The translations under genes and the position numbers were made by a program. This document shows, piece by piece, positions 233-432 of a DNA stretch of 64,000 nt; position 1 is the stretch's first letter, and each line of letters starts with the position of its first letter. This stretch comes from Eubacteriales bacterium (GTDB lineage: Bacteria; Bacillota; Clostridia; Oscillospirales; Oscillospiraceae), in the NCBI GenBank assembly GCA_030533415.1, contig JAUNJE010000005.1:46836-110835 (forward strand), written 5' to 3'. Below the pieces are notes generated by a model that was not told the origin of the DNA, ran no database searches, and saw only the letters and a list, made by a program, of their open reading frames with translations.

Positions 233-432
233 CTCCCGGACAACATATGGCACGCTATCGAATCCCCTTACGAAAGGAGCATAATGGGCACAGCGAAGCA
301 CCCGGCCATATGGGCAGTCCGGGAGCAGCACATTCGTCCAAAGCGAAAATTTCTTCGCAGCAACTCAAGAAAGTCGTTTCTCATTCCGGTTCGCACTCCT
401 TTCGATAGCTAAACCCACTTCACTTGTAGGTT
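233..432 (-). promoter_or_regulatory. Structured 5' leader of metY, candidate Cys attenuator
   Basis: Two long inverted repeats interleave. Pair A joins 396-409 to 254-279: gctatcgaa at 254 and cgaaaggag at 271 are both complementary to it. Pair B joins 305-325 to 233-251, with 9 bp (GTCCGGGAG/CTCCCGGAC) plus 8 bp (GCCATATG/CATATGGC) around a 4x2 internal loop. The order is A, B, A', B', so the two stems are either a pseudoknot or mutually exclusive. Stem A also occludes the mini-ORF ribosome binding site. No S-box, Met T-box or other known motif was recognised, and no U-tract terminator follows, so control could act on translation or RNA stability. Confidence 0.5.
268..384 (-). CDS. 38-residue leader peptide with Cys-Cys doublet upstream of metY
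   Basis: An ATG at 384 sits 9 nt after AAAGGAG and opens a 38-codon frame ending in TAA at 268-270. The peptide is basic in its first half and carries FGRMCCSRTAHMAGCF, with adjacent UGC-UGC codons at residues 19-20 and a third Cys at 29. It lies inside the transcript of the sulfur-assimilation gene metY. The first base of a long stem (arm 325-305) is the last base of the second Cys codon. A ribosome stalled for Cys-tRNA would therefore cover that arm. I infer a cysteine-sensing leader peptide. I do not recognise it as a named family, and it could be a chance ORF. Confidence 0.55.
   Translation of the reverse strand: MRNDFLELLRRNFRFGRMCCSRTAHMAGCFAVPIMLLS

Follow-up and report, generated by a model that had tools for sequence, protein, structure and literature searches.

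A leader-peptide family with a near-invariant CGA-AUG codon pair upstream of metY in Clostridia: a candidate nascent-peptide attenuator

In the 64,000-nucleotide stretch of DNA analysed here (the window), metY is preceded by a leader whose small open reading frame (ORF) encodes a member of a large, apparently undescribed set of related control peptides from gut Clostridia. The family is represented by 180 distinct loci, all encoding the core N[F/Y]RxGRM, in which the arginine codon directly before the methionine is almost always the rare CGA. This near constancy of CGA before Met18 suggests that the gene is switched by ribosome pausing at exactly this point. We propose, with a probability of about 0.5, that the leader is a transcription attenuator under the control of a regulatory nascent peptide, which would arrest the ribosome at CGA-AUG and thereby turn metY off. 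An initial annotation of this DNA had instead read the leader as a device in which ribosomes stalled at cysteine codons change the RNA fold. As a whole, this cysteine-starvation reading is partly supported: the attenuator, the conservation of the peptide and the covariation of the first stem favour control of the fold by ribosome position, whereas cysteine codons as the conserved sensor do not hold. The conservation of the peptide, the fixed CGA17 and the competition between an antiterminator and an intrinsic terminator (241–213) had escaped that annotation.

The leader in front of metY

The elements of the locus, from the promoter to the gene, are:

440–468 (−): sigma-70-type promoter, TTGACA-17-TATAAT; 12 of 12 consensus positions, 17-nt spacer
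411–433 (−): inverted repeat AAACCTAC..GTGGGTTT at the transcript 5′ end; a putative 5′ hairpin or operator
396–402 (−): Shine-Dalgarno (SD) sequence AAAGGAG of the leader ORF, from the sequence
268–384 (−): leader peptide ORF of 38 codons, MRNDFLELLRRNFRFGRMCCSRTAHMAGCFAVPIMLLS; sequence and family searches
331–357 (−): conserved core, codons 10–18, R-R-N-F-R-F-G-R-M; alignments and the 180-locus count
331–336 (−): CGA17-ATG18 codon pair, the predicted arrest site; CGA in 179 of 180 loci and all 8 divergent relatives
325–330 (−): TGC-TGC, Cys19-Cys20, from the sequence; not universal in the family
315–325 (−): segment A, predicted antiterminator 5′ arm (CTCCCGGACTG); folding and covariation
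299–309 (−): segment B (ATGGCCGGGTG), putative alternative pairing with A or C; conservation
286–291 (−): segment C (GTGCCC), predicted to pair with GGGTGC at 303–298; conservation
233–243 (−): segment D, predicted antiterminator 3′ arm and terminator 5′ arm; folding, covariation, conservation and scan
203–241 (−): predicted intrinsic terminator, stem 241–213 followed by TATTATTTTG; scan and conservation
1–164 (−): start of metY, O-acetylhomoserine sulfhydrylase, running off the window; TIGR01326, E 1.5e-190

The promoter is as perfect as the initial annotation had called it, and the well-placed ribosome binding site and the 38-codon ORF with UGC-UGC (codons 19–20) are likewise as described there; a promoter scan at a lower threshold finds on average 0.8 sites in shuffled sequence. 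The start codon of metY lies at 164 and its product is a protein of 427 aa. By eye, repeats resembling that at 411–433 were noticed in many relatives (e.g., L010, L016 and L024). They are of the type AACCTAT..ATAGGTT, lie near the promoter, sometimes in two copies and in some loci across the −35 box, and look like a putative 5′ hairpin or the operator of some transcription factor. A run of cobalamin-biosynthesis-like genes, named from their translations alone, adjoins metY at 642–8378 (−), and a cobalamin riboswitch (RF00174) is found at 11881–12086 (−).

The minimum free energy fold of 434–160 (−84.8 kcal/mol, z −2.33) is equalled by 5 of 200 shuffles and includes the 17-bp stem that had been proposed between 325–305 and 251–233, as 325–317 paired with 233–241 and 312–305 with 244–251. 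The 3′ arm of this stem doubles as the 5′ arm of the terminator-like stem 241–213. Shuffled sequence would by itself yield 0.9 such sites in a terminator scan, and the window's terminator, whose U-tract is interrupted, has a fold equalled by 19 of 200 shuffles and is thus not strong on its own; we credit it because it is conserved in 28 leaders rather than because of the scan. A second stem, between the SD region and 279–254, had been proposed to cover the ribosome binding site. In the window's own sequence this claim stands, as only 1 of 500 shuffled tails reaches the duplex energy. However, in five close relatives the corresponding duplex is matched by 30, 42, 44, 301 and 321 of 500 shuffled tails, and we reject it as a conserved element since this comparison does not clearly bear it out; similar raw energies occur in some of 22 other leaders of the window's type (type 2, below).

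A peptide family and its fixed codon

The comparison with relatives suggested in the initial annotation recovered the peptide in 180 loci and covariation of the first stem in 28 leaders. All 180 loci come from the window's class, those with names being titled Clostridia and kin. Arginine occupies position 10 in 179 of them, and this R10 is residue 10 of the peptide in 158 of 180 (counted under the crude type split described below). The peptide itself, queried against 200 genomes of the window's family, gave many chance matches (96 of the 200 genomes at E up to 1); 30 loci including the window's own were fetched, 27 of them with the core, weaker places (E above about 0.02) being left out except for two of G160. 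At E up to 0.01, a 20-residue core profile found matches in 88 of the 394 order-level genomes and in 39 of the 391 class-level ones; eleven weak order-level matches (E 2e-4 to 0.009) and twelve class-level matches without a locus were left aside. Among 299 genomes of the phylum at E 0.001 the window's genome alone matched, this sample also including genomes of the same class without a match. A scan of genome contigs added up to at least 59 loci, titled, among the matches listed, Clostridia, Clostridiales, Eubacteriales, Oscillospiraceae, Ruminococcaceae, Lachnospiraceae and similar, with a few titled merely as bacterium. Four genomes of the window's own genus (G049, G135, G195 and G523) lacked a match to the peptide or profile, three having been covered by the peptide search and all four by the profile search; the element is patchy even inside this genus.

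The count of 180 derives from 188 core matches, of which eight lack ATG18: two true variants (L109 and L171) and six unrelated sequences. Six further loci with the core and CGA-ATG (L068, L154, L162, L164, L178 and L193) were treated as duplicates and not counted, and L181 was not read singly. Eight profile matches (L114, L118–L120, L204, L206, L207 and L209) fall outside the strict core and the 180, and the profile match L029 (KRNFRFGCLC) has neither Arg17 nor CGA. Alignment A1 excludes L011 (a near-duplicate), L020, L021, L027 and L029, and A2 excludes L032.

The initial annotation knew of no named family for the leader, and none emerged here: the five peptides tried matched no Pfam or NCBIfam family at E up to 10, and Rfam gave nothing at the gathering threshold at the locus, with sub-threshold matches to unrelated families alone in 1–640, which rules out an Rfam riboswitch or T-box identity. 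Four peptide motif strings have no occurrence in the PMC papers searched, and no description of the family was found in the titles and abstract openings of the best-ranked open-literature matches, subscription papers and preprints lying outside this scope.

Downstream of the leader, metY is found in at least 138 of the 180 loci. Among the other 42, 23 genes cluster together by BLAST, with a representative that matches the NlpA/MetQ lipoprotein family, four encode another substrate-binding protein (its representative matching NMT1 and phosphonate-binding models below cut-offs only) and two encode a MetN-like ATPase with a NIL domain; the MetQ and MetN representatives score above the Pfam cut-offs and below those of NCBIfam. 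The remaining 13 consist of four other ABC-transporter parts, seven unrelated or unclear ORFs and two loci in which no ORF was found. At L005 the next ORF, 532 nt from the leader, encodes a FAD-binding flavoprotein, and at L007 it encodes a URO-D-family protein, with no metY or transporter at either.

Two kinds of constraint act on the core. N12, F/Y13, R14 and G16 are kept across the 180 loci while their codons vary; because the residues are kept as the codons drift, the peptide itself must be under selection (the strict core was defined on residues rather than codons, and the searches were run at the protein level). At position 17, the codon too is fixed: it is CGA in 179 of 180 loci, the exception being AGA in L153, while R10 and R14 make use of all six arginine codons. 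In the portions of 132 downstream metY genes that fall within the loci, CGA makes up 57 of 1683 arginine codons and is absent from 95 of the genes (a count made under the crude type split). CGA-ATG is present in all eight divergent profile matches, whose changes include Q at 16, C at 14 and W or Y at 13, and in the two variants that lack Met18 the CGA stands immediately before TGT. The tails of type-1 leaders repeat this pattern, with CGA accounting for 27 of 83 arginine codons and 24 of these 27 standing directly before TGT.

The tRNA-Arg genes of the window's genome (an assembly 88% complete) have the anticodons ACG, CCG, CCT and TCT. Since no TCG tRNA-Arg was found among the 42 of 43 tRNA matches confirmed by ARAGORN in this 88% complete genome, CGA is presumably decoded by the ACG tRNA. 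The first anticodon base of that tRNA is inosine. A Salmonella his-leader assay reports slow reading of CGA without any ligand (PMC4046918), and, as described in a review, codon pairs that start with CGA perturb the A-site in stalled ribosomes of yeast (PMC7829197); by analogy, CGA-AUG may do so in Clostridia.

A programmed frameshift at CGA was considered and rejected, as none of the frames stands out: +1 and −1 remain open past metY in similar excess (35 and 32 of 113 loci, about 18.5 being expected from shuffled spacers), and frame 0 stops early (4 of 113, 17.6 expected).

Two leader types and a predicted switch

The 180 loci fall into two types by what follows the core. A crude rule flagged 34 as type 2, of which five (L013, L025, L052, L095 and L190) were removed on reading; the corrected split is 151 type-1 loci (about 84%) and 29 of type 2, including the window. 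The type-2 analyses used 28, as L142, in which no U-run was found, was dropped.

Type-1 loci share the peptide and the codon pair and have no type-2 terminator; a hairpin with a T-run stands before metY in 7 of the 113 examined. Their ORF usually ends soon past Met18, at a median of 5 codons after CGA17 (113 loci). Codon 19 is TGT or TGC in 102 of 151 and TGA in 30 of 151, and UGN follows CGAAUG in 134. Met18 is never closer than 50 nt to the metY ATG (110 type-1 loci, crude split). Where Met18 is the last codon before the stop, 30 of the 31 loci counted use TGA and L189 uses TAA; the divergent L204 also has TAA there, and TAG was never seen. For type 1, the idea that an arrested ribosome frees the metY SD was rejected as unspecific: the mean unpaired probability of the SD rises from 0.41 to 0.53 with the ribosomal P-site at codon 17 (P17), and values of 0.42 to 0.49 at P3–P14 point to a gradual rise with any nearer footprint.

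In type 2, the tail is made up of structured segments A, B and C, then D, then the terminator. The CCCG core of arm A starts at ORF nucleotide 62 in 28 of 28 leaders. The A:D helix, the first stem of the window, has 93.2% of its cells paired in these leaders, and its covariation score lies above those of all 500 shuffles; two-sided changes occur in four pairs (a number reached by 12 of 500), and the number of further pair types does not exceed that of shuffles (253 of 500), all of these being shuffle counts and not probabilities, as the sequences are related. Partners slid along the sequence score far lower. The A:B, B:C and D:E helices (95.7%, 89.3% and 95.5% of cells kept, none with two-sided changes) are putative and based on conservation. 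D, the terminator 3′ arm (E) and a T-run of 4 to 7 are present in all 28 leaders, the T-run having been required by the script that collected them.

To place the ribosome on this structure, the 28 leaders were folded with a footprint of −14 to +15 from the P-site kept unpaired, a calculation of equilibrium thermodynamics without kinetics. Without a ribosome, the antiterminator A:D has a mean probability of 0.84 and the terminator D:E of 0.13. Mean D:E then goes from 0.30 at P16 to 0.74 at P17, 0.88–0.89 at P18–26, 0.85 at P27 and 0.57 at P28; with codon 29 or later in the P-site, the antiterminator prevails (mean D:E 0.08–0.35). In the window alone, the terminator stands at 0.00 without a ribosome, 0.08 at P16, 0.95 at P17, 0.96 at P18, 0.02 at P27 and 0.50 at P32. 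When the 5′ UTR is folded along with it, the terminator stays high over P17–P27 and gives mixed values over P28–P32. The onset shifts with where the front edge of the footprint is set: +11 places it at P18, +13 and +15 at P17–P18 and +17 at P16. Hence, in type 2 antitermination is predicted to be the default and termination to occur mainly with the P-site at codons 17–28, and the first ribosome position that would flip the switch is predicted to be at or beside CGA17-AUG18.

Proposed mechanism, alternatives and known systems

Sequence comparison shows that the ribosome makes a 17-residue chain ending in N-F-R-x-G-R, with the rare CGA as codon 17 and AUG next, that antiterminator arm A lies directly 3′ of CGA-AUG and that D is shared with the terminator D:E. 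Folding predicts that, with A uncovered, A:D would form and metY would be on; a ribosome at CGA17/AUG18 would cover A, D would pair with E and metY would be off. Under the proposed arrest mechanism, the chain in the exit tunnel and the slow, inosine-read CGA in the P-site would together hold the ribosome, presumably under a plentiful supply of a sulfur amino acid or derivative (Met, SAM or Cys). The outcome would be feedback repression of metY and of methionine-uptake and related transport genes. Arrest would be expected under sulfur amino acid or SAM plenty because the pause gives termination in front of genes that make or import methionine. Extended to the whole class, this reading becomes one of a Clostridia-wide nascent-peptide family sensing sulfur amino acids or SAM, in which arrest requires an inosine-decoded P-site CGA before AUG, codon-anticodon geometry and chain sense jointly, and intrinsic termination is triggered in one branch by the arrested ribosome itself; we give this broader version somewhat less than even odds.

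The strongest competitor, which we consider possible and yet rather unlikely, is a starvation sensor in the manner of classical attenuation: with CGA in the P-site, translation would be limited by how fast the following Met (AUG18) or Cys (UGY) codon is decoded, and the leader would thereby report how well tRNA-Met and tRNA-Cys are charged. Met or Cys codons do follow CGA far above expectation (in 179 of 180 loci at codon 17 and at 24 of 27 CGA codons in type-1 tails), and Cys makes up 194 of 668 type-1 tail codons (146 loci, crude split). However, 39 of 180 loci (35 of 151 type-1 and 4 of 29 type-2) have no Cys codon after Met18, the invariant part of the leader being N[F/Y]RxGRM with CGA-AUG, and counting codons does not explain the conserved NFRxG residues. 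Moreover, the direction is predicted to be wrong for a biosynthetic gene: in the folding model, a type-2 stall at codons 17–20, which include the cysteine codons of the initial annotation, would mask the antiterminator and turn metY off, opposite to a starvation attenuator. Sensing by the nascent chain is preferred mainly because a starvation pause would shut the gene off when it is needed. Still, type-1 tails abound in Cys codons, which looks like tRNA-Cys sensing and suggests that Cys supply matters too; nascent-chain sensing and tRNA-Cys sensing may each hold in different branches.

Less probable again is a constitutive pause: ribosomes would be slowed at all times by the peptide and CGA-AUG, which would synchronise them with RNA polymerase, and regulation would lie with a transcription factor binding the inverted repeats or with some other step. 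The ligand-independent slowness of CGA (PMC4046918) and the inverted repeats seen by eye near the promoters of many loci are in keeping with it, but a fixed pause favouring termination would merely lower expression, and the strong conservation of residues suggests more than timing. We consider it quite improbable that CGAAUG acts as RNA, as a binding or pairing site for a protein, sRNA or aptamer, with the peptide incidental. Such a site would account for two in-frame codons fixed in nearly all loci and for the UGN that follows in most type-1 leaders; against it, residues are kept while synonymous sites vary, the distance of CGAAUG from the start codon is fixed in most loci and no Rfam family matches at the locus. 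A search for a pairing partner in type-1 leaders also failed, the complement CATTCG not being enriched (3 of 152 leaders, 6.4 expected), although the shorter ATTCG is somewhat over-represented (50 of 152, 33.7 expected); CACATTCG occurs in 2 of 152, with 0.3 expected. Finally, a chance small ORF with repeats upstream of metY, for which its short length and promoter and terminator scans that alone lie near chance might speak, is already refuted by 180 distinct loci in many families with conserved synteny and a nearly invariant codon.

Among known systems, the leader would work most like the ligand-sensing arrest peptides TnaC and SpeFL, with arrest and ligand-sensing here being predicted: in all three a conserved short leader peptide controls transcription of metabolic genes through arrest in its conserved part, and the residues selected here at the amino-acid level likewise lie near the putative arrest site. 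The likeness is one of mechanism, and the present family differs in its predicted sign (off), its sulfur genes, the antiterminator/terminator switch of type 2 and the near-invariant synonymous CGA. TnaC and SpeFL are described as arresting at termination (PMC8429421). Small ORFs with runs of Cys codons near the stop, lying before sulfur genes and without a terminator, are reported from Actinobacteria (PMC1262725) and resemble type 1; they belong to another phylum and other genes, while type 2 here has a full antiterminator/terminator pair, and the text of that report does not mention the RxNFRxGRM core or the CGA-AUG rule.

With the classical attenuators (trp and his) the leader shares a leader ORF, alternative RNA helices and an intrinsic terminator; its SD-bearing ORF lies downstream of a promoter, and mutually exclusive antiterminator and terminator are present in type 2 only. 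It departs from them in lacking conserved control codons for the end product, the single Met18 being the sole nearly invariant sulfur codon, and in that a stall would favour not the antiterminator but, computationally, the terminator (P17–P27). The SAM-I riboswitch (S-box, RF00162) controls Met/SAM genes in Bacillota. It has no match at the metY leader, yet matches 63 of 101 family genomes searched (59 over the cut-off). Elsewhere in the window's genome, a SAM-I riboswitch stands at G000:C71:18163–18259 (L252), before an ORF that is metK-like by translation alone; metK and metY of this genome appear to be under different controls. In plants, the nascent CGS1/MTO1 peptide feeds back on a step of the homocysteine pathway in response to SAM; likened here by mechanism alone, it lies within the enzyme itself, unlike the separate leader described here.

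Arrest peptides are usually discussed in terms of their amino-acid sequence. If the proposed mechanism is true, the near invariance of one synonymous codon where arrest is presumed would point to codon-anticodon pairing as part of how a natural sensor works. It would also help to account for the control of methionine synthesis and uptake outside the SAM riboswitch in many Clostridia, and the leader offers an easily tested system, in which a single-base synonymous change would suffice as the probe.
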